From positions 2,102,501-2,166,500 of the forward strand of contig NZ_CP084606.1 of the NCBI RefSeq assembly GCF_022376835.1: a stretch of 64,000 bases of DNA. Direction: 5' to 3'. The position numbers and the translations under genes are program-made. The notes under the pieces are model-generated. The model was not told where the DNA came from. It ran no database searches and saw only the letters and a list, made by a program, of their open reading frames with translations. Numbering within the stretch: the stretch's first letter is position 1; each line of letters begins with the position of its first letter. Of this stretch, positions 23,906 through 34,816 are shown in pieces. This DNA is from Brucepastera parasyntrophica (GTDB lineage Bacteria > Spirochaetota > Spirochaetia > Treponematales > Treponemataceae).

Positions 23906-26481
23906 TTACACAACAATGTTAACCAGCTTTCCCGGAACGACAATTATCTTTTTCGGTGTTTTTCCGTCAATAAATTTGATTGCGCCGGGCATGGTCAGGG
24001 CCTTTTTTTCAAGTTCGTCCCTGCCGGTGTCGACCGGAGCTTCAAATTTATCTCTTATTTTTCCGTTTACCTGGACAACTACGGTATAGATGTTATCTTC
24101 ACACAGGTCTTCATTGTAAACCGGCCAGGGGACATAGGTTATTGTTTCCGTGCTGCCGAGTTTTTCCCAGAGTTCTTCCCCCAGATGGGGCGCATAGGGG
24201 GATAAAAGCTTGATAAATTCCGCCCAGACAGCCTTCGGGAAAGAGTCATATTTGGAAAGTTCATTCGTAAAAATCATCATCTGGCTGATTGCGGTGTTGA
24301 AATTCAGGGAAGCGGTATCTTCCGTGACTTTTTTTATTGTCTTGTGCAGGAGTCTGGAAATTTCTTCGGCCTGTGGGGTCGATACGTCTTCTGTTGAACT
24401 GTCCGTCATCTGTTTTTCGGCAAGGACCCATACCCGTTCAAGAAAACGGCTGATCCCCACCAGACCATGGGTATTCCAGGGTTTGGAAACTTCAAGCGGA
24501 CCCATAAACATTTCATATAACCGCGCGGCATCCGCGCCGTATTCACTGATAATATCGTCGGGGTTTATGACATTTTTCAGGCTCTTGGACATTTTGGCGA
24601 TAACCCGTTCCAGTTTTTCGCCCGTGGCTGTTTCTTCATATTCATCGGTTTTCCCCGGAATCTCACGGACCTCGTCCATCGGCACAAGGGTTTTATTTTT
24701 CCGCTGAAAGGCAAATGACGTTATCAGTCCCTGGTTAATGAGCCGTGTAAAGGGTTCGTTGGTATTGACCAGGCCGAGATCAAATAAAACCTTATGCCAG
24801 AAGCGGGAATACAGGAGGTGGAGAACCGCGTGCTCCGCGCCTCCTACATAGAGATCAACAGGCATCCAGTAATTTATTTTGTCCGGCGCGGCAAATTCCT
24901 TCGGGTTTTTGGGATCAAGATACCGCAGATAATACCAGCATGAGCCTGCCCACTGGGGCATTGTATTAGTTTCCCGCTTGGCCGGTCCTCCGCATTTCGG
25001 GCAGGTAGTATTTACCCAGTCGTCAATTCCTGCAAGAGGGCTCTCTCCCGTTCCTGTCGGCTGGTAACGCTCAACTTCGGGCAGGCGGAGCGGCAGGTCT
25101 TTTTCGTCCATCGGGACAACACCGCAGTTTTCGCAGTGAATGAGAGGGATAGGTTCCCCCAGTAACGCTGCCGGCTGAAAATCCAGTCCCTCAGTTTGTA
25201 ATTTACCGCCCGTTTTCCGATGCCTTTTGCTTCGAGCCAGCCGGTAATTCTTTTTTTGAATTCAGCGGTTTCGAGGCCGGTAAATTCTCCTGAATTAACT
25301 GCATACCCGTCCGCCGCCGTACATTCTTCCGTAACCGCGGAATAATCCCCGTTTTTCCCTTTCTTTTCCCATTCTTCCTTTGAAGCCACTACCTGGATGA
25401 CCGGCAGGCCGAATTTCTGCGCAAAGGCCCAGTCCCGGTCATCATGGGCGGGAACCGCCATAATAGCGCCGGTCCCATAGGAAATCAGAATATAGTCGGA
25501 CACCCAAACAGGGATTTTTACGCCGTTTACCGGGTTGATTGCATACGCTCCGGTAAAAACGCCTGTTTTATCCTTTGCCAGATCAGTCCGTTCCAGATCG
25601 CTTTTTTTTGCAGCTTCATTAATATAGGTTTCAACCGCGTTTTTCCGGTCCGGGGTTGTTATTTTCGTTACAAGCGGATGTTCCGGGGCCAGAACCATAT
25701 AGGTTGCCCCGAAAAGGGTATCCGGACGTGTGGTATAAATAAGCAGATCTTCATTTTCAGTGCCGGCTATTTTAAATGTTACATCAGCCCCCTCACTTTT
25801 GCCTATCCAGTTCCGCTGCATTGACTTGACCGATTCCGGCCAGTCGAGGTCTTCGAGGTCATTGAGAAGCCGTTCCGCATATTTCGTAATTTTCAGAATC
25901 CATTGCCGGATGTTTTTCCGCTCCACCTGGGTCCCGCACCGGTCGCATTTGCCTTCTTTTACTTCCTCATTGGCGAGGCCGGTTTTGCAGCTCGGACACC
26001 AGTTAATAGGTGTTTCAGCCTCATAGGCGAGGCCCTGCTTGAACAGCTGCAGGAAAATCCACTGGGTCCAGTGATAGTAATTCTCGTCACAGGTTGAAAT
26101 TTCCCTGTCCCAGTCATAGGAAAAGCCGAAAGCTTTTATCTGTTCCCGGAATTTGTCTATATTTTTCTGGGTAGTTATACGGGGATGCGTCCCTGTCTTT
26201 ATTGCGTAATTTTCCGCCGGAAGGCCGAATGAATCAAAGCCCATCGGATGAAGAACCGCATAGCCGTTCATCCTGAGATAACGGGAAAAGATATCGGTTG
26301 CCGTGTATCCTTCCGGGTGTCCGACGTGGAGTCCTGCTGCCGAGGGATAGGGGAACATATCGAGAACATATTGCCGTTTTTCCTTCGGAATTGAAGGATC
26401 TTCAATTGTCTTGAATGTTTTATTGTCATCCCAGAATTTCTGCCACTTTGGTTCGATTGTCTCAAAGGGATATTTAGCCAT
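23906..26481 (-). CDS. leuS: Leucyl-tRNA synthetase, one frameshift
   Basis: About 858 residues after repair, normal for bacterial LeuRS. HIGH motif [12 protein letters not shown]; zinc-like CPSCKTG; editing domain around residues 220-420 with [15 protein letters not shown] and [17 protein letters not shown] loop [10 protein letters not shown]. The frame breaks after FSRQRYWG in the run at 25156-25160. Adding one G to the coding strand gives [16 protein letters not shown], the expected continuation. Ribosome site: aaaggagcgg. As an essential single-copy gene, its break is a strong sign that the sequence, not the gene, is faulty. Confidence 0.97.
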
Positions 26482-26856
26482 TGTTCCGCTCCTTTGCCGC
26501 CGGACTTTTTTTCACATTCGGAGTATTATGTATACTCAGGATATATGTTACAGAAACAGCATATCTCCGTCTGTTTCAGGCGGGATATGCCGATGATTTC
26601 ATTCTATAAAAATAATTGTTCTTATACAAGAATGGGAATTTTCCTGTTTATCCGGAATGGTCAGGAATTGTTATGGTCTATTCAGGGTCCGGGGCAATAT
26701 TTTCTCCCCGAAGACCTTCAAATAGTGTATAATAAAATACCACGCTGCTTTGCAGCGGGGTATAAACCTCCGCCACGAATAAAATTCTGCGGAATTTTTC
26801 GGAAGACGGCAGGAAAAAAAAACCGTATATTTACAAACAGGGACGGAAGATACACA
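26482..26856. other. Intergenic region upstream of the first porin-like gene
   Basis: No gene is visible. The region holds one palindromic repeat (26737-26763) and the divergent promoters for leuS and the porin-like gene, which I cannot place exactly. Confidence 0.55.
26737..26785. repeat. REP-like palindromic element, copy 1
   Basis: Arms ATACCACGCTGC (26737-26748) and GCAGCGGGGTAT (26752-26763) with one mismatch and a TTT loop, followed by an AAACC...CGCCACGAATAAA tail. The palindrome and tail resemble the copies at 43056-43177, so this is a dispersed family rather than a single terminator. Confidence 0.6.
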
Positions 26857-27482
26857 ATGAAAAAAATTACTATAGCGATACTGCTTCTCCTTATAACAAT
26901 ACAGGCTTCATTTGCCATTGAACTGCGGGCTGGCCTCGGAGGCAGTTTTTCAATGGAAATGACAAAGATCAGGACGGAAATTCCTTCCCTTGCCGATACT
27001 ATCGAATATTCCGCGGTTTCTTTCGGGTTTCACGGTTTTTTGATGCGCAGTATGCGGAACTGACTGTCAATTTTCTTTTTTACCGTTCCGGTGATTTCTG
27101 GTATGACAAGGCCACAGGAATGAATTTCGGGCTGTATGGAAAATATCCGTTCAATCTTGGCGCAGTGACAATTTTTCCGCTTTTTGGCGCTGAAGTCCAG
27201 TGGTATATATCAAGCGATACGGATTGGCGTACGGCAAGCTGGCTTCCCGGTTATTCCTACAAGGACTCTGATTTAAGCGCCCTGTGGGTCAAGTTCGGCG
27301 TGGGCTCTGATTTTTCCGTATCCGGAAAAGTATTCCTGCGCGTAAGCCTTCTGTACGGATTCCGGCTCTATAACAGCCTGGAAGAAGACCTTGCCAATTA
27401 TGCCGATAAAAACGATTATTCCGAGAGTATTTTTTCTTCGGGCCCTGATCTGAAATTCGCTGTCGGATTCCGGTTTCTGTAA
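26857..27482 (+). CDS. Small outer-membrane-like protein, paralogue 1, one frameshift
   Basis: About 208 residues after joining. Signal peptide MKKITIAILLLLITIQASFA, then alternating beta strands, ending in FAVGFRFL with a terminal aromatic-rich strand typical of outer-membrane barrels. The break is in the T-run at 27036-27041; one extra T gives GFFDAQYAELTVNFLF. It shares the plan of the next two genes (GLGG near the start, LYGKYPF.LG.., ALWVKFG, then a C-terminal YRFL-type end). The function is not known; a small barrel of about eight strands is my inference. Confidence 0.75.
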
Positions 27483-27557
27483 AAAATATACCGGCAGGAA
27501 ATATATGTATCCATTGGTTTGAAAAAGATAAAAATCCCGAAAAAAGAACGATTTTCT

Positions 27558-27586
27558 TTGTTTTTCTGTGTATTATGCGCTACAAT
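27558..27586 (+). promoter_or_regulatory. Promoter of porin-like paralogue 2
   Basis: TTGTTT (27558-27563), 17 bases, TACAAT (27581-27586). The same boxes, spacing and preceding GCGC occur before paralogue 3, so the promoter was duplicated with the gene. Confidence 0.65.
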
Positions 27587-27648
27587 AAGACAGAACACCG
27601 TTTACATTCTTGAACGGAGTTTTTGTTTTCTGCTTTCTTAAGCAAAAA

Positions 27649-27688
27649 ACATCACACCTGTAAAAAAGTGATTTTATGATAAATCACT
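27649..27688 (+). promoter_or_regulatory. 5' leader with alternative hairpins, copy 1
   Basis: Within the 120-base leader, AGTGATT (27667-27673) can pair with AATCACT (27682-27688) or with an upstream ATCAC near 27650. A GCTT/AAGC stem precedes them. The same order is kept before the next paralogue. It ends about 20 bases before the ribosome site ggaggt. Confidence 0.5.
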
Positions 27689-27713
27689 AAACAAAAGGTT
27701 TTTGGAGGTCACA

Positions 27714-28310
27714 ATGAAAAAAATTATTGCAGTGTTGGCTTGCGCGGTTCTGATGATTTCCGGGACGTTCGCAATCGGTTTGAGCGCCGGGTTGGGCGGC
27801 CAGTTTGATTTTGGGTTTGTTTCTACCGAGACAGAACTTTTGGGCGCAACATCGAAGGACAGTGATTCCAGCAGTATTCTGGGTTTCTATGGTTTCATCG
27901 ATGCTACCTATGTGGAAGTAGATATCGGTATGCTCTTTGACAAGGATGATGACCTTGACTCATCCCTGACAATATTGAATCTTGCCCTGTATGGAAAATA
28001 TCCTTTCAAGTTAGGCATGATTTCCCTGTATCCTATGCTTGGTATCGACTATCAGATATGTGTAGCTATGGACCCCGAGCCAATAGGAGTGGATAAGGCT
28101 GATTTAAATAACCTGTGGTTTAAACTTGGCGGCGGTCTTGATATCAATTTCGGCCGGCTGTTCGTACGGGGTAATGCGTTATTTGGCATAAAACTGCATA
28201 ATAAGTTTGAAAAAGACCTGATAGATTTAATGGATACATCAGTTTCCTCTCTCAGTATCTTTACAACCGGACTGGATTTAAGGCTCGCAATCGGCTACAG
28301 GTTCCTGTAA
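27714..28310 (+). CDS. Small outer-membrane-like protein, paralogue 2
   Basis: 198 residues from the ATG at 27714, with ribosome site ggaggt at 27703-27708. Signal peptide MKKIIAVLACAVLMISGTFA, nearly the same as in paralogue 3. Mature protein begins IGLSAGLGGQFDF and contains NLALYGKYPFKLGMISLYP, DYQICVAMDPEP and a C-terminal LDLRLAIGYRFL strand. It is probably a small beta-barrel or surface protein. Downstream is a good terminator, so it is a single-gene unit. Confidence 0.85.
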   Translation: MKKIIAVLACAVLMISGTFAIGLSAGLGGQFDFGFVSTETELLGATSKDSDSSSILGFYGFIDATYVEVDIGMLFDKDDDLDSSLTILNLALYGKYPFKLGMISLYPMLGIDYQICVAMDPEPIGVDKADLNNLWFKLGGGLDINFGRLFVRGNALFGIKLHNKFEKDLIDLMDTSVSSLSIFTTGLDLRLAIGYRFL

Positions 28311-28329
28311 GAGTACTTATTAAGCAATA

Positions 28330-28369
28330 AAAAACGCCGTACTGTTTGTCTTTACGGCGTTTTTATTTT
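28330..28369 (+). terminator. Terminator after porin-like paralogue 2
   Basis: Arms AAAAACGCCGTA (28330-28341) and TACGGCGTTTTT (28353-28364), perfect pairing, ending in T-rich sequence. Confidence 0.88.
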
Positions 28370-28383
28370 AAAATCATGACAAA
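28361..28383 (-). repeat. Remnant of the EamA gene 3' end
   Basis: These 23 bases are identical to 29196-29218, which encode the last residues (VMILK-stop) of the EamA gene that follows paralogue 3. The rest of that gene is absent here. This fits a tandem duplication whose junction kept only the tail of the neighbour. Confidence 0.55.
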
Positions 28384-28410
28384 GCCCTTCTGTAAATTTA
28401 ATTTATTAGT

Positions 28411-28439
28411 TTGTTTTTTTGTATATAGTGCGCTACAAT
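28411..28439 (+). promoter_or_regulatory. Promoter of porin-like paralogue 3
   Basis: TTGTTT (28411-28416), 17 bases, TACAAT (28434-28439), matching the promoter of paralogue 2. Confidence 0.65.
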
Positions 28440-28498
28440 ACTAGTGGAGATTCTGTTTCCCGGTGAATATTTTTTTCTTTCCGCTTTATAAGGCAAAA

Positions 28499-28538
28499 AT
28501 ATCACGCGCATAATAAAGTGATTTTATGATAAATCACT
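28499..28538 (+). promoter_or_regulatory. 5' leader with alternative hairpins, copy 2
   Basis: AGTGATT (28517-28523) pairs with AATCACT (28532-28538) or the upstream ATCAC near 28501. The core is identical to copy 1 while flanks differ, which suggests the element itself is kept. Confidence 0.5.
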
Positions 28539-28559
28539 AAAAAAGTTTTGGGGGTTGTA

Positions 28560-29144
28560 ATGAAAAAGCTTGCTGCAGTATTGATGTGCGCGGTTCTGAT
28601 GGTTTCAGGGACTTTCGCAATTGGTTTGAGCGCCGGATTGGGAGGTCAGTTTGATCTCACATTCTTATCGGAAGAACTTGGCAGTGACAAGGAAACATAT
28701 GCCGGAAGTTATTTTGGCGCATACGGGTTTGTTGATTTAACCTATCTGGAATTTGATATCGGTGTTCTTTTCGGCAGTACCGATTTCTATACTCTTGATT
28801 TTACTTTTATGAATCTTGGACTGTATGCCAAATATCCGTTTAAACTGGGATTTATCACGCTGGCTCCGATGATTGGTATTGATTACCAGATAACCCTTGC
28901 TCTCGATCCCGAGCCATACGGATACAGTAAAGCTGATTTCAATACATTATGGGTTAAACTTGGCGCGCAGCTGGATATTAATCTGGGTCGGTTATTTATA
29001 CGGGGCACCGCTCTGTTCGGCATAGAGACAAAAAATGTGATCGAAAGTGATCTTCTGGATTATGCTTCCCTTTTGGGAGTGGACTACGGCATATTCAAAT
29101 CCGGACTGGATTTCAAGGCGGCGATCGGCTACAGGTTCCTGTAA
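28560..29144 (+). CDS. Small outer-membrane-like protein, paralogue 3
   Basis: 194 residues from the ATG at 28560 after a gggggt ribosome site. Signal peptide MKKLAAVLMCAVLMVSGTFA, mature start IGLSAGLGGQFDL. It shares NLGLYAKYPFKLGFITLAP, DYQITLALDPEPYGYSKADF and the end LDFKAAIGYRFL with paralogue 2; the loop after GLGGQFD and the region near the end are the most different parts. A weak hairpin with TTTT lies just after the stop (about 29167-29199). Surface exposure of the variable loops is inference. Confidence 0.85.
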   Translation: MKKLAAVLMCAVLMVSGTFAIGLSAGLGGQFDLTFLSEELGSDKETYAGSYFGAYGFVDLTYLEFDIGVLFGSTDFYTLDFTFMNLGLYAKYPFKLGFITLAPMIGIDYQITLALDPEPYGYSKADFNTLWVKLGAQLDINLGRLFIRGTALFGIETKNVIESDLLDYASLLGVDYGIFKSGLDFKAAIGYRFL

Positions 29145-29197
29145 GATTCTGTTATAAACGCCATGAAGAACTGTTCGGGCTTTTCCGGGCGGTTCTT

Positions 29198-29614
29198 TTA
29201 TTTTAAAATCATGACAAAAGTTCCCGCCGTAATAAGAATGCAGCCTATAACCGTTTTCAGGGTAATGGCTTCATGCAGAAAAATAAAAGCCAGCACAATA
29301 GTAATCACAATGCTGAATTTATCGATAGGCACCACTTTTGAAACGTCGCCGATCTGGATTGCCCGGTAATAGCAGAGCCAGGAAAGGCCTGTGGCAATGC
29401 CTGACAGTACCAGAAAAAGCAGACTCCTCCCCGATATATTCCTGATTTCAGTCTGGACGCCTGAAATGAATACAATTCCCCAGGCCATAACCAGCACAAC
29501 GACTGTTCTGATTGCGGTAGCCAGGTTTGAATTTATATCGCCGATACCTACTTTGGCAAGAATTGACGTAAGCGCTGCGAACACGGCTGAAAGAACTGCA
29601 TATACTGCCCACAT
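29198..29614 (-). CDS. EamA-domain transporter, single-domain
   Basis: 138 residues from the ATG at 29614. One EamA (DMT-type) domain with about five membrane helices: WAVYAVLSAVFAALTSILAK, then LVMAWGIVFISG, SGIATGLSWLCYYRAIQIG and ITAGTFVMILK. Such half-size proteins work as dimers and move small metabolites; the substrate is unknown. It is convergent with paralogue 3. Confidence 0.88.
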   Translation of the reverse strand: MWAVYAVLSAVFAALTSILAKVGIGDINSNLATAIRTVVVLVMAWGIVFISGVQTEIRNISGRSLLFLVLSGIATGLSWLCYYRAIQIGDVSKVVPIDKFSIVITIVLAFIFLHEAITLKTVIGCILITAGTFVMILK

Positions 29615-29887
29615 ATAAGTCTCCGGGATTAATGATAGCCGGAATACACTCCCTGTTCTGGAAATATTCCGGGTGTTAAAAAACATCTTTATACTATTTA
29701 TCGTTTATATTTTCCGCTTTCTTTAATGGGAAGGACTCCCCGGGAAATAACACGTTTTGTTGAATATAACACAAAGATTAAGTTGAGTTTAACCGGAGTT
29801 TATGGTATACCGGTCATAGTGCCGCCTGTTATTTTGTACATGAAAACGCGCCTGGCTGTTTATTCTGCCTTCCCGTATGGGTGAATA

Positions 29888-32431
29888 ATGAATATGAAAA
29901 ATAAGGTAATCCGGATAGTTTTTTTTCTCCTGTCGTTCACGCTTTTCGGGCGGGAAGTGAAAATTTCCGTTGCAGACAAAGATCTGGATTTGCCCCTTGA
30001 AGGCGCAGTGATTCATTCCTGGGATGGAGAAATATATTTTTGTGATGATTTTGGTGAAGCGGTCATTACCGTCCCCGATGGCCGGCAGGTCACGCTGCAG
30101 GTGACCTATCCCGGTTATGAAACAGGAAGGTTCGCCGTTCCTCTTGCCGGGGAAGAATTTACCATACGTTTAAGTCTTGGCGGAATTATGGAAGGGAAAG
30201 AGCTTGTCATCGAAGCGCAAAAGCCCGGAGAAAGTGAAACGAGGCCCGGACGCAGTGTGGCGATTTCCGGAGAAACGCTGGAAAGAACCGCCAAAATAGG
30301 TTTTATCGAAGATGTAATGACATCGATAAAACTGCTCCCCGGAGTTGGCTATACCAGTATGTTTAACGCCATGCCTTCAATCAGGGGCGGCGATCCCGGC
30401 GACCTTATGGCGGTGTATGACGGTTTTTATATTGAAAATCCCTATTATTGGGGAGGGAGCCTTTCCATCTTCGATCCGAACATGATTTCAAGCGCCCAGC
30501 TCTCTCATGGTATTTTTTCCGTCCGTTACGGGCACAGCATTTCAGGCATACTTGAAGTTACTTCCAAGAAGGCCAACACCGAAATGACTGAACTGGAACT
30601 TGGTATTTCGACAAGCGCGGTAAACCTGAACGCGTCCATTCCGGTGAATAAAAAAGGCGGTTTTATGGTCATGGGCAGGGTGACCTTCTGGGACCCCTTT
30701 GTCTGGGCAGTACAGGGACTTGCAGATGTTACCGGCAATGAAACCCTTGCCCTTGTAAAAGCTGTTACCACGGCGCCGTACATCAGAAGCGCCGCGGTGA
30801 ATTTCAATTATCAATTTACCCCCGATCTTGAACTCAGAATTAACAGTTTTATCGGCACCGACGGCGTAGGCGCAGATTATGCCAACGAAAATGATAATTC
30901 CGAAGTTCAGAGCAAACTGCACATGCTTTTTGACTGGGACAATTTGCAGACCTTTTTAAATGCCGGCCTTACATACACGCCCCGGCCGGATATGGTTCTG
31001 CGGGCAACCGCCGGCGCCGGTTACAGCCGTTCTCTGCTTGACGGTCTTTTTGATTACGATTATGTCAGGATTTATAATCCTGACGGAACATTAAAGTACG
31101 AAATCCCCGGCGATTATCTTGATATGGACCTTAATCTGGTTGACCATGTTGTTAATGTGCAGGGACGCGTTGATTTTGACTGGGACCTGGGCAGGGGATT
31201 TCTTCTTGCCGCGGGCATACAGGAATTATACCGCAGCCAGTCAGCGGAACAGGACGGACTCTTTTTTATTGAGCGGCGAATTACCGGCGGTACCGGAATT
31301 CCCGGGGTTGACTACATGCAGTATCCCCTGCAGATGGAGATTACCGCGGGCAATAGCATGCTCACTTCCTCGGCCTATGGCCTTGTCGAATACACAAGTC
31401 CGGCCCGGCGTTTTGGCGCCGAGCTTGGTCTGCGCCTGGACCATCTGTACTTTGCGGGAGACGGCTTTGATATTCAGACTAAGCCGGTACTGAATCCCAG
31501 GCTGAACCTTGATTTTAATGTTTTCAAGAATAAGGGCATAATTCAGTCCCTGGACATTACCGCCGGGTCCGGACTTTTTTCATCGGTGAATGACGCAGTT
31601 TCCTCAATTGAAATTAACAGCGGGGTGGATGATTTTACGCTTACACCCAACCGTTCGTGGACAAGCATCATCGGAGCAAAGATTGATTTCGCGGGCGGCT
31701 GGAGTTTTAATATTGAGGGCTATTATAAATATGTTTTTGACCGGGCATATCAGTATACATATACAACCGACACCGTTAATTCAGAGCTGGTGTACCGTTT
31801 TGACGGTGACGGCATTGTATGGGGATTTGACGCGATGCTCCAGAAATTCGACAGCCGATATTTTGACGGCTGGGTTTCCTATACCTTTACCTGGGCGAAG
31901 TACCATGAAAGTGAACGGCCCGGCGGGACGCTTTCATCTTCCGGCACAACACAGCTTGTTGATTCCGGCTGGTATTATCCGAGCTTTCACCGTTTTCACA
32001 ATATCAATCTGGTGCTGAATATCAAACCGCTGCGTAATTTCAATATCTATACACGCCTCGGTTTGGCTTCAGGACGGCCTTTAAACAAAACGGGGGAAAT
32101 TTATTCCTATCAGGTTCAGCTGGTCGATAAAGACGGAAATCCGGGGACGGTTATTACCAAATACCGCCGCGATTCATCATACGACGACAATAACCGTACC
32201 ACCTGGTCAATCCCGCTCGATGTCAAACTATCCTGGTATCTGTTTAATCCGAAGAACAAGGTACAGACTGAAATCTATCTTGCCGCGGAAAATCTGCTTT
32301 CGCTGGTGTATCGCCCCCAGGGGAACACCACGTTCAATCAGTATACCGGTACCGAAGATACGGGCAGCCAGAGCGCGAGTTATGAATTGCCGATCCCGAT
32401 GATATCTTTCGGATTCAAATGGAGTTATTGA
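29888..32431 (+). CDS. TonB-dependent outer-membrane receptor
   Basis: 847 residues. Signal peptide, then a carboxypeptidase-regulatory-like beta domain (about residues 20-100), a linker with a possible TonB box (GKELVIEAQ), the plug domain (FIEDVMTSIKLLPGVGYTSM; PSIRGGDPGDLMAVYDGFY; HGIFSVRYGHSISGILEV) and a long barrel ending in FGFKWSY. It takes up a bulky ligand across the outer membrane using energy from TonB-ExbBD. The ligand is unknown. The complete energising complex is encoded directly downstream, so this receptor has a dedicated system. Confidence 0.92.
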   Translation: MNMKNKVIRIVFFLLSFTLFGREVKISVADKDLDLPLEGAVIHSWDGEIYFCDDFGEAVITVPDGRQVTLQVTYPGYETGRFAVPLAGEEFTIRLSLGGIMEGKELVIEAQKPGESETRPGRSVAISGETLERTAKIGFIEDVMTSIKLLPGVGYTSMFNAMPSIRGGDPGDLMAVYDGFYIENPYYWGGSLSIFDPNMISSAQLSHGIFSVRYGHSISGILEVTSKKANTEMTELELGISTSAVNLNASIPVNKKGGFMVMGRVTFWDPFVWAVQGLADVTGNETLALVKAVTTAPYIRSAAVNFNYQFTPDLELRINSFIGTDGVGADYANENDNSEVQSKLHMLFDWDNLQTFLNAGLTYTPRPDMVLRATAGAGYSRSLLDGLFDYDYVRIYNPDGTLKYEIPGDYLDMDLNLVDHVVNVQGRVDFDWDLGRGFLLAAGIQELYRSQSAEQDGLFFIERRITGGTGIPGVDYMQYPLQMEITAGNSMLTSSAYGLVEYTSPARRFGAELGLRLDHLYFAGDGFDIQTKPVLNPRLNLDFNVFKNKGIIQSLDITAGSGLFSSVNDAVSSIEINSGVDDFTLTPNRSWTSIIGAKIDFAGGWSFNIEGYYKYVFDRAYQYTYTTDTVNSELVYRFDGDGIVWGFDAMLQKFDSRYFDGWVSYTFTWAKYHESERPGGTLSSSGTTQLVDSGWYYPSFHRFHNINLVLNIKPLRNFNIYTRLGLASGRPLNKTGEIYSYQVQLVDKDGNPGTVITKYRRDSSYDDNNRTTWSIPLDVKLSWYLFNPKNKVQTEIYLAAENLLSLVYRPQGNTTFNQYTGTEDTGSQSASYELPIPMISFGFKWSY

Positions 32432-32436
32432 GTAAA

Positions 32437-33318
32437 ATGAAACAGAAGTATATGCGATGGAAACAGTTTCCGTTTTTTGTTTTGCTTATAAGCGGTGTTT
32501 TTATATCAGCCGGATGCTCGACCCTTGTCGAGAAGTCGGGTGAGGTTCTGGACGGATCGGCTTTTGACGAGAAAACGACGGCCATCTACCGTTCCGGAGA
32601 GAAAGGTTCCCGGTCCGACATGCGGATTATACGGGAGAAGGAGACGGACAGGGAATTGCTTGTCATGACATCGGAGGCCTTTCCCGGTCTTGAATTGTAC
32701 AGCACTGTTCCCGTTCCGGGATATTCGCTAGACGCCGCTGAAATTGAGTTCATCAGGGCGCGGATACTTTCCTCCCATGTGTATGGGTGGAATGAATTTT
32801 CGCTGGACCTTTTCGGGACAGCCCACTGTATCCTCAGGGGATATTACGCTTCGCTGGAAATAGACGCGCCTCCGGAACGCATACAGGTCAGCGAAGGCAT
32901 GATCAGATTGAAAAGCCGCCGCTTAACCGGCGGCGAGGCCCTTACTTCACTGAGGAACCGCAGGGAACGTATCCTTGCCCTTGCGGAATGGATGGAAGAC
33001 AGCGAATGGGGAGGCAGTACTTTTTCTTCGCAAAAAGAGTTTGAGAATTACTGGAAGCCTATCCTGTTTCCTGAACTGGTAAAGAAAAAAGAACGGCCTC
33101 AGGTATACAGTACAGAAAATGCGCAATGGATACGGACGGACAGTATCAGATGGAATAAAACATACACGGAATTCCTTTTTCCCGAAGAGTTGTGGGAACT
33201 GCGTAATTCAGGAGCCTTGCTCAGGGATTGGGAAGAAGCGGTAACATGGATATTTTATGAATGTCATTGGGATTCAATAATTGCGTCCCTTAATGGCATC
33301 AGATTAACATTGAGGTAG
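32437..33318 (+). CDS. Lipoprotein of the TonB operon
   Basis: About 293 residues. Signal peptide with lipobox-like VFISAGCSTL. The rest is mixed alpha/beta, charged, with many Arg and Glu (EKETDRELLVMTSEAF; LTSLRNRRERILALAEWMED). I do not recognise the family. It lies between the receptor and exbB with 5-7 base gaps, so it is co-transcribed and may assist the receptor, for example as a surface or periplasmic ligand-binding protein. The ATG at 32437 follows ggag at the receptor's 3' end; starts a few codons away are possible. Confidence 0.75.
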   Translation: MKQKYMRWKQFPFFVLLISGVFISAGCSTLVEKSGEVLDGSAFDEKTTAIYRSGEKGSRSDMRIIREKETDRELLVMTSEAFPGLELYSTVPVPGYSLDAAEIEFIRARILSSHVYGWNEFSLDLFGTAHCILRGYYASLEIDAPPERIQVSEGMIRLKSRRLTGGEALTSLRNRRERILALAEWMEDSEWGGSTFSSQKEFENYWKPILFPELVKKKERPQVYSTENAQWIRTDSIRWNKTYTEFLFPEELWELRNSGALLRDWEEAVTWIFYECHWDSIIASLNGIRLTLR

Positions 33319-33325
33319 TTTAGTT

Positions 33326-34036
33326 ATGGAAGGAACATCATCATTCGCGCTTTTGGAACTCTTTCAGCTGGGCGGCATCTTCATGTGGCCTCTTCTGGCC
33401 TTTTCGGTCGCCACTGTGGCAATTGCCCTGGAACGGATAATCTATCTGGGAAGACACAATCTCAGGATTGATGATCTGAAGCTGGAAACCGAAAAATACA
33501 TACGGTCAGGCAGATTCGCAGAGGCTGGGGAATTTCTTGAAAAACAGACTGACAAACGGATGGGCGCGAGGGTCCTTTTCGCGCTTGTTTCCAATGCGGA
33601 TCTTCCCGAATACGAGCTGGCCGAAAAAGCCGCCGAGGCCGAGGCCGGGGAATGTATCGCTTCTCTGGAAAATGGTTTTAATTATCTTACTGCCCTTGGT
33701 TCACTGTCTCCTCTTACAGGTTTTCTCGGAACCGTCTCGGGGATGATAGGAGCCTTCCGTTCCATTGCCGAGGCCGAGGATGTAAGCGCTCAGATCGTTG
33801 CAAACGGTATTTATGAAGCCCTTATTACCACCGTTTTCGGCCTCTGCATTGCTATTGTTGCCATGATAGCCCATTCTCTTTTTTCCGGCGCAGTGGACAA
33901 GTTCGCCGGAAATATTGAAAAGGCCTGTTCCGATCTTATTATTGATATCGCTAAATTCCGTCACTACGGCAAAACAGAAGAATCTCCGGCGCCGCAGAGT
34001 GAACCGGTTCCGGTAGATGAGCAAAATGAAAATTAA
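33326..34036 (+). CDS. exbB: MotA/TolQ/ExbB proton channel protein
   Basis: 236 residues. Three membrane helices: one near the N-terminus (FMWPLLAFSVATVAIALE) and a pair at residues about 115-190 (LGSLSPLTGFLGTVSGMIGAF; ANGIYEALITTVFGLCIAIV). These match the ExbB channel core. It conducts protons with ExbD to energise TonB. It overlaps the start of the first exbD by 20 bases. Confidence 0.93.
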   Translation: MEGTSSFALLELFQLGGIFMWPLLAFSVATVAIALERIIYLGRHNLRIDDLKLETEKYIRSGRFAEAGEFLEKQTDKRMGARVLFALVSNADLPEYELAEKAAEAEAGECIASLENGFNYLTALGSLSPLTGFLGTVSGMIGAFRSIAEAEDVSAQIVANGIYEALITTVFGLCIAIVAMIAHSLFSGAVDKFAGNIEKACSDLIIDIAKFRHYGKTEESPAPQSEPVPVDEQNEN

Positions 34037-34427
34037 ACGGCGTAAAAGATTAAGTTTCAGTGAGACCAGCGCCTCCAGTGATGTAGCGTTTCTGCTTATC
34101 ATTTATTTTCTGGTTATTGCAGGCTTTAATGTCAATTTCGGTTTTCTCTTAACGCTCCCGGCAAAGGATTCCACCAGGATGATTCTGAAAGACGATCTTA
34201 TGCGCTTTGACATGGATGAGTCGGGTTTTATCTCATATGAAGGCGGCCTGCTGAGCCTCGGTGATGCGGAAACAATAATCCGTTCCGCGGTGAACCGGCA
34301 TCCTAATCTGGCAGTTGTCCTGTCCATTGATTCGGAAGCCCCGTGGCAGGAGGTGGTTTCCTTTGTGGAACTGGCGCAAAAACTGGAGGTTGATTCATTT
34401 TCCTTTAATATGAAGGGCAGTATATGA
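34017..34427 (+). CDS. ExbD/TolR protein, first copy
   Basis: 136 residues with one N-terminal membrane helix carrying the conserved Asp (SSDVAFLLIIYFLVIAGF) and a periplasmic domain. The helix begins after a Lys/Arg-rich cytoplasmic start. It forms the stator-like proton path with ExbB. It ends with an ATGA overlap into the second exbD. Confidence 0.9.
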   Translation: MSKMKIKRRKRLSFSETSASSDVAFLLIIYFLVIAGFNVNFGFLLTLPAKDSTRMILKDDLMRFDMDESGFISYEGGLLSLGDAETIIRSAVNRHPNLAVVLSIDSEAPWQEVVSFVELAQKLEVDSFSFNMKGSI

Positions 34428-34816
34428 AAATAAAGAAACGAAGATCGGATTTTCTTATTCCGACAAACTCGATGTCCGATGTAGCATTTCTGCTTCTTAT
34501 TTTTATCATGCTGGTTTCGCTGATCAATTACAGAAGAGAAGTAAAGATTGAATATCCTGAAGCGGAACTGGCAAAGAAAACAAGCGCCGAGAAAAACCTT
34601 GAAATCTGGATAGACCGTGGAGGCAATCTTTACCTGAACGGAATTGCAAGCAATCTGGATGCCATTGAGGCCGGGATAATAACCGCGTACCAGGAAGCGC
34701 CGGATACCCGGGTTCATGTTATCGCTGACCGGGGAACACCCTTCCGGAATGTAAACAAGGTGCTTGATATTCTGCAGATTCTTCAGTACCGGGTCGTAAG
34801 TTTTGTTGTTAAATAA
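34424..34816 (+). CDS. ExbD/TolR protein, second copy
   Basis: 130 residues. Membrane helix SDVAFLLLIFIMLVSLI with the conserved Asp; periplasmic domain with IDRGGNLYLNGI and VHVIADRGTPFRNVNKVL, the usual ExbD pattern. Two unequal ExbD proteins suggest a mixed ExbD pair in the complex, as in some Bacteroidetes and Leptospira systems. Confidence 0.93.
   Translation: MKIKKRRSDFLIPTNSMSDVAFLLLIFIMLVSLINYRREVKIEYPEAELAKKTSAEKNLEIWIDRGGNLYLNGIASNLDAIEAGIITAYQEAPDTRVHVIADRGTPFRNVNKVLDILQILQYRVVSFVVK

Follow-up and report, generated by a model that had tools for sequence, protein, structure and literature searches.

Two tandem genes for small surface proteins in Brucepastera parasyntrophica carry an identical palindrome shortly before their ribosome binding sites, and the question is what has kept it there. 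A sequence-only reading of the locus had described duplicated porin-like genes whose shared leader folds in two exclusive ways, and had proposed a translational switch or a binding site for a protein or an RNA. We examined the genes, their leaders and the predicted folds in the window (the whole stretch of DNA analysed, 64 kb), and searched for the palindrome in the whole genome and in other genomes.

The duplicated genes and their leaders

The gene cluster contains three related genes, a terminator and the trace of a duplication.

26858 to 27482, plus strand: paralogue 1, frame-broken and split between two frames; leader without the palindrome
27714 to 28310, plus strand: paralogue 2, TDE1717-family outer membrane beta-barrel protein, 198 aa (NF049866, 165.5 bits, cut-off 135)
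28330 to 28369, plus strand: terminator of paralogue 2, AAAAACGCCGT...ACGGCGTTTTT and a T tract, found by eye
28361 to 28383, no strand assigned: 23 nt that repeat exactly the 3' end of the EamA-like gene farther downstream (29196-29218), a remnant of the tandem duplication
28560 to 29144, plus strand: paralogue 3, TDE1717-family outer membrane beta-barrel protein, 194 aa (NF049866, 152.2 bits, cut-off 135)

Paralogues 2 and 3 match the NCBIfam model NF049866 (TDE1717 family) over their full length, both above the curated cut-off. The structure model of paralogue 3 (pLDDT 91.8) has an N-terminal helix at residues 2-18 (signal) and eight long strands in 194 residues; the protein is thus predicted with high confidence to be an 8-stranded barrel with a signal helix. 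A structure search returned PDB fold matches that include NspA, Ail, OmpW, OmpX and OmpA, with modest TM-scores. The label porin-like therefore gives way to that of a small TDE1717-family barrel, predicted to be 8-stranded; a classic trimeric porin (16-18 strands, about 300 or more residues) is ruled out by the length and strand number of paralogue 3. Relatives of the TDE1717 family occur in 78 of the 395 genomes of the class, and a peptide-pattern search of genome contigs found no related proteins. Three papers mention TDE1717, all of them just as a hypothetical protein or as a neighbour of other genes, and we found no study of its leader. The cluster adjoins an outer-membrane receptor-like gene and apparent ExbB/ExbD/TonB-type genes (29888-34816).

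That the genes are duplicated is borne out: paralogues 2 and 3 are diverged copies, with 60% identity in protein and 64% in coding sequence, and 28 of their 48 fourfold-degenerate sites (58%) are identical. Judged by these identities, they are old tandem duplicates, not recent copies. The end of the duplication unit is marked by the EamA-like copy between them, which agrees at 23 of 23 positions with the 3' end of that minus-strand gene. The terminator of paralogue 2 is not listed by the terminator scan, in which loops were limited to 8 nt. Upstream of the cluster, leuS (23906-26481, minus strand) is spread over two overlapping ORFs in different frames, with a break near 25012-25111, so that an essential gene is apparently frame-broken. 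Given 88% completeness for a genome of 3.24 Mb in one contig, the breaks in leuS and in paralogue 1 suggest assembly indel errors rather than true pseudogenes.

Between promoter and start codon, outside the shared block, the two leaders are laid out as follows.

27558 to 27586, plus strand: promoter of paralogue 2, TTGTTT, 17-nt spacer, TACAAT, read directly; predicted transcription start near 27593
27624 to 27651, plus strand: U-run/A-run stem of leader 2 (GUUUUcUGCUU..AAGCAaAAAAC), which includes the GCTT/AAGC stem described earlier
27651 to 27655, plus strand: ATCAC of leader 2, the proposed alternative partner of the hairpin 5' arm, weak at -2.2 kcal/mol
27704 to 27709, plus strand: Shine-Dalgarno sequence GGAGGT of paralogue 2, read directly
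28411 to 28439, plus strand: promoter of paralogue 3, TTGTTT, 17-nt spacer, TACAAT, read directly; predicted transcription start near 28442-28446
28463 to 28505, plus strand: U-run/A-run stem of leader 3 (GUGAaUAUUUUU..AAAAAUAUCAC), in which ATCAC is consumed
28501 to 28505, plus strand: ATCAC of leader 3
28550 to 28555, plus strand: Shine-Dalgarno sequence GGGGGT of paralogue 3, read directly

The promoter boxes said to be common to both genes are indeed present at both; the two promoter regions agree at 28 of 36 aligned positions, and each predicts a 5' untranslated leader of about 120 nt. The GCTT/AAGC stem, also described as shared, exists in paralogue 2 only, since in paralogue 3 it reads GCTT/AGGC (one G.U pair) and is absent from the predicted fold. 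Both leaders have the longer U/A stem, in which one pair has been kept by a two-sided change, G-C to A-U. At the 5' end of leader 2 (27598-27617) the scan found a 7-bp hairpin and, after it, a U-rich run, a terminator-like arrangement that has no counterpart in leader 3. Folded as a whole, leader 2 is unusual (z -4.7) and leader 3 is not (z -0.45).

The shared 27-nt block

The palindrome lies in a longer block that is identical in the two leaders.

27665 to 27691, plus strand: identical 27-nt block, copy 1, with the 8-bp hairpin AGTGATTT-TATGAT-AAATCACT at 27667-27688 (-7.0 kcal/mol)
28515 to 28541, plus strand: identical 27-nt block, copy 2, with the 8-bp hairpin at 28517-28538

The palindrome, AGTGATTTTATGATAAATCACT, gives a perfect 8-bp hairpin with the loop UAUGAU at both places. 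The AGTGATT...AATCACT element of the sequence-only reading is thus identical in both leaders as claimed, with a stem of 8 bp and a 6-nt loop in place of the 7 bp given. It ends 15 nt before the Shine-Dalgarno sequence in paralogue 2 and 11 nt before it in paralogue 3 (25 and 21 nt before the ATG). Because it sits about 70 nt downstream of the predicted transcription start and before the Shine-Dalgarno sequence, the hairpin should lie inside the transcript. It is dominant in the predicted ensemble of leader 2 (probability 0.93-1.0) and the majority form in that of leader 3 (0.63-0.68), and taken alone it scores z = -5.5 and -4.8, respectively. Covariation is uninformative on the pairing because there are only two sequences and their arms are invariant.

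The identity of the block is abrupt. The 12-nt flanks agree at 7/12 and 6/12 positions, the flanking leader is about 50% identical overall, and an identical run of at least 27 within 121 nt has a probability of P ~1e-5 at the fourfold-site rate, or 0.014 at a generous 76% identity. Since the duplicates are old and the flanks have diverged, the block has changed less than expected under drift. The earlier statement that the core was kept while the flanks differ therefore stands, and it fits a selected cis-element; an exact hairpin shared by such sequences suggests that something still uses it.

We considered that the block might instead be a neutral leftover or the product of micro gene conversion, short tracts having been homogenised or kept by chance around a functionless hairpin. 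The 23-nt EamA-like copy at the 3' junction of paralogue 2 speaks for this, as it is 100% identical despite the diverged coding sequence and under no evident constraint; local identity in the cluster may therefore partly reflect recent recombination. Hairpins of this size are moreover not rare as such (58 of 8 bp in the 64-kb window vs 8.7 in shuffles; hairpins of at least 8 bp precede about 7% of ordinary genes in this genome, n=60), and nothing similar was found in the other genomes searched. However, the 27-nt tract is shorter than usual conversion tracts and is bordered on both sides by about 50-60% identity, and the silent-site probability given above also weighs against chance. We regard a leftover as unlikely and nonetheless as a real rival.

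Within the genome, the palindrome is confined to the two leaders. At up to 3 mismatches it has 2 matches in the window vs 0.00 expected, and no further copy in the 3.24-Mb genome. A genome-wide covariance model of the leader recovered only the same two loci (E 2.7e-17 and 7.1e-16; next match E 4.3), so that both copies precede the same gene family. When the palindrome pattern was widened and 2 mismatches were allowed, the genome had 115 sites vs 29 for the reversed control, which we read as an effect of codon and stop-codon composition, the control containing TAA/TAG. In 26000-30000 no Rfam family reached its gathering score, and the only match there, away from the block, was at chance level (18.9 vs 49.5 bits).

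These features bear as well on a DNA-level explanation, in which a dimeric regulator would bind the palindrome as duplex DNA and form a roadblock early in the transcription of both genes, with ATCAC as a third half-site. The two-fold symmetry is perfect, the loop and flanks are as conserved as the arms, and the ATCAC half-site recurs upstream in both copies. Yet operators do not usually lie where this site does, about +75 to +96 relative to the predicted start; no third copy turned up in the genome with up to 3 mismatches allowed, and no regulator gene was seen among the neighbouring ORFs listed. An operator is a real rival too and, like the leftover, unlikely.

Another account of the identity is that the block encodes a leader peptide. 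An upstream mini-ORF, ATG ATA AAT CAC TAA (M-I-N-H-stop), runs from the hairpin loop to just past the hairpin and is identical in both leaders. The tail of 16S rRNA contains AUCAC, with which the GTGAT three bases before this ATG can pair. Against this, the frame has four codons only and no conventional Shine-Dalgarno sequence, and AT-rich sequence has many short frames from ATG to stop; we find a leader peptide hardly credible.

Predicted folds and access to the ribosome site

The sequence-only reading held that the upstream ATCAC can also pair with the 5' arm of the hairpin. In a two-state switch of this kind, ATCAC and the 3' arm would compete for the 5' arm and so open or close the ribosome site. 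The 5-nt match exists: in both leaders ATCAC is complementary to the GTGAT of AGTGATT. The helix is weak, however (-2.2 and -3.0 kcal/mol in leaders 2 and 3 vs -7.0 for the hairpin, thus 4-5 kcal/mol weaker), its predicted pairing probability is 0.000 in both leaders, and an ensemble constrained to form it is about 8-9 kcal/mol less favourable. In leader 3, AUCAC is predicted to pair elsewhere, with the upstream GUGA in the long U/A stem. Furthermore, a 5-nt arm match within the 17 nt just upstream arises in 5-7% of shuffles. The picture of two exclusive folds is thus not upheld by the calculations.

Access to the Shine-Dalgarno sequence does not behave as a switch would require. It is predicted to be strongly sequestered in paralogue 2 but to an intermediate degree in paralogue 3, so the two copies do not have this in common; in paralogue 2 its unpaired probability is 0.21 with the hairpin and 0.22 without it. 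Forcing the alternative helix lowers predicted access in leader 3 (from 0.48 to 0.23), which speaks for a switch, but leaves that in leader 2 unchanged (0.21 vs 0.23). A state that forms a terminator is not indicated either, as the sense strand has no T tract after the hairpin. Thus, given the weak alternative helix and the unresponsive Shine-Dalgarno access, a two-state translational switch is not supported by the fold calculations, which leave room for transient folding during transcription; we consider it very improbable, and the idea of competing hairpins is best dropped.

On the minus strand, TTTTTT comes after the hairpin in leader 2 and TTTATTAT in leader 3, and such T-rich tails in both leaders raised the idea of a weak terminator for antisense transcripts. 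The 8-bp stem is AT-rich, though, the terminator scan does not list it, and the tail of leader 3 is interrupted, all of which makes this reading far-fetched.

Distribution, candidate function and known systems

If the hairpin were a family trait, it should recur in front of related genes. The sequence-only reading had proposed a search for the leader pattern before similar genes, and no counterpart was found ahead of about 30 homologous genes; the leaders of homologues in other genera lack the block. It had also named absence from other paralogues as evidence against itself, and the palindrome is in fact missing before paralogue 1 and before two more members of the family in the genome. A search of 394 genomes of the order that allowed up to 3 mismatches yielded 11 matches outside this genome; those inspected are located within other genes or ahead of unrelated ones, and none of them precedes a TDE1717-family gene. 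The arms and flanks with a free loop gave 6 matches in 84,980 species, none before a related gene, the exact palindrome was absent from viral contigs, and the leader covariance model returned nothing credible over the homologous loci. As far as the searched collections go, in which this genome alone represents its genus, the leader hairpin is private to this lineage and not a family trait.

Several homologues in other genera have their own, different hairpins before the Shine-Dalgarno sequence. A family-wide preference for such hairpins was considered and dropped, being not significant (at least 7 bp in 8/32 homologous leaders vs 17/119 ordinary genes, P 0.12). In such leaders from two related genomes (loci L032, genome G055, and L089, G048), a hairpin stands directly before the Shine-Dalgarno sequence, with identical arms TTCCGTA/TACGGAA and loops of different length, and both also have an upstream TGAGAATTTTCTCA palindrome; together these form a candidate separate leader element. 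Phase-variable promoters with a G tract in the spacer have been reported for other Treponema outer-membrane genes (TP0126). A TDE1717-family gene of another genus (L084, G028:C1) has eight Gs in its promoter spacer, TTGACT TTTTTTAGGGGGGGGA TATAAT, about 108 nt before the start, which by analogy is the layout of a phase-variable promoter. Another family member (L021, G009:C11) has a nine-G tract about 176 nt before its start. No tract of at least 8 G or C was found in 80 kb of other sequence of these two genomes.

For the two leaders studied here, we tentatively favour an RNA-level cis-element that tunes mRNA stability or ribosome loading, beside which the operator and the leftover are the real rivals. 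This preference is based on the position inside the predicted transcript, the dominant hairpin and the fact that stem, loop and flanking As are identical in the two copies. Against it weigh the unremarkable whole-leader fold of leader 3, the frequency of such hairpins before ordinary genes, the lack of a significant excess among homologues and the share that recombination may have in the identity. The element would reside in the roughly 120-nt 5' leaders of two tandem TDE1717-family barrel genes. After duplication these kept the promoter, the U/A stem and, most strictly, the 27-nt hairpin block, and the remaining leader diverged. The hairpin, predicted to fold as a stable stem-loop just upstream of an A-rich spacer and the Shine-Dalgarno sequence, could adjust mRNA half-life or ribosome loading, as other structured outer-membrane-protein leaders do. 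Because the loop and flanking As are identical as well, a sequence-specific partner probably reads it; an RNA-binding protein or an antisense or small RNA could fill this role, in line with the binding site that the sequence-only reading gave as its alternative. In a bolder version, a dedicated RNA-binding regulator or small RNA would recognise the hairpin and co-regulate, through one retained control switch, two surface-barrel genes whose proteins have diverged, all this in a spirochaete in which Hfq was not detected; it seems to us improbable.

Two general regulators were considered as partners. Hfq (PF17209) was not detected in the genome, with control genomes positive, and at 88% completeness a divergent Hfq could be missed. 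A csrA gene is present; a CsrA-controlled leader was rejected, as GGA occurs at the Shine-Dalgarno sequence of leader 2 only (GGGGG in leader 3) and is absent from the conserved loop UAUGAU. Post-transcriptional control of surface proteins is little known in spirochaetes where Hfq is not found, and diverged duplicates that keep one exact leader hairpin offer a compact natural test of it. With two copies in one genome, and known from sequence alone, the element is of value chiefly as a candidate and for the correction of the competing-hairpins reading.

Among known systems, the family to which the genes belong offers no precedent: both paralogues exceed the NF049866 cut-off, but the leader hairpin is absent before the other members examined. 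Palindromic operators of dimeric regulators share with this element a perfect inverted repeat next to a gene start; unlike them, the repeat here lies within the predicted transcript and has no other genome copy. The E. coli ompA leader is closer, being a long structured leader with stem-loops before the Shine-Dalgarno sequence of a gene for an 8-stranded outer-membrane barrel. A 1992 paper is, by its title, reportedly on a 5'-terminal stem-loop in that leader. If transcription begins at the predicted start, the 5'-terminal hairpin would be strong in leader 2, at -9.0 kcal/mol (z ~-3.5), and weak in leader 3, at about -4 kcal/mol (z ~0). In rapidly growing E. coli the ompA mRNA is highly stable, and its start site is blocked by MicA (review, PMC7509114). 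The ompA leader is a MicA/Hfq target, whereas Hfq was not detected here, and the likeness to a stabilising leader is one of layout. In Yersinia, ompA has an RNA thermometer whose structure opens around the Shine-Dalgarno region (PMC8245352); it too is a structured leader, one that controls translation of a small outer-membrane barrel, but the hairpin here ends 11-15 nt upstream of the Shine-Dalgarno sequence, whose pairing is not common to the copies. Membership in the ompA types is not established by these comparisons, and by analogy the element most likely works as the structured leaders of small outer-membrane barrels do.
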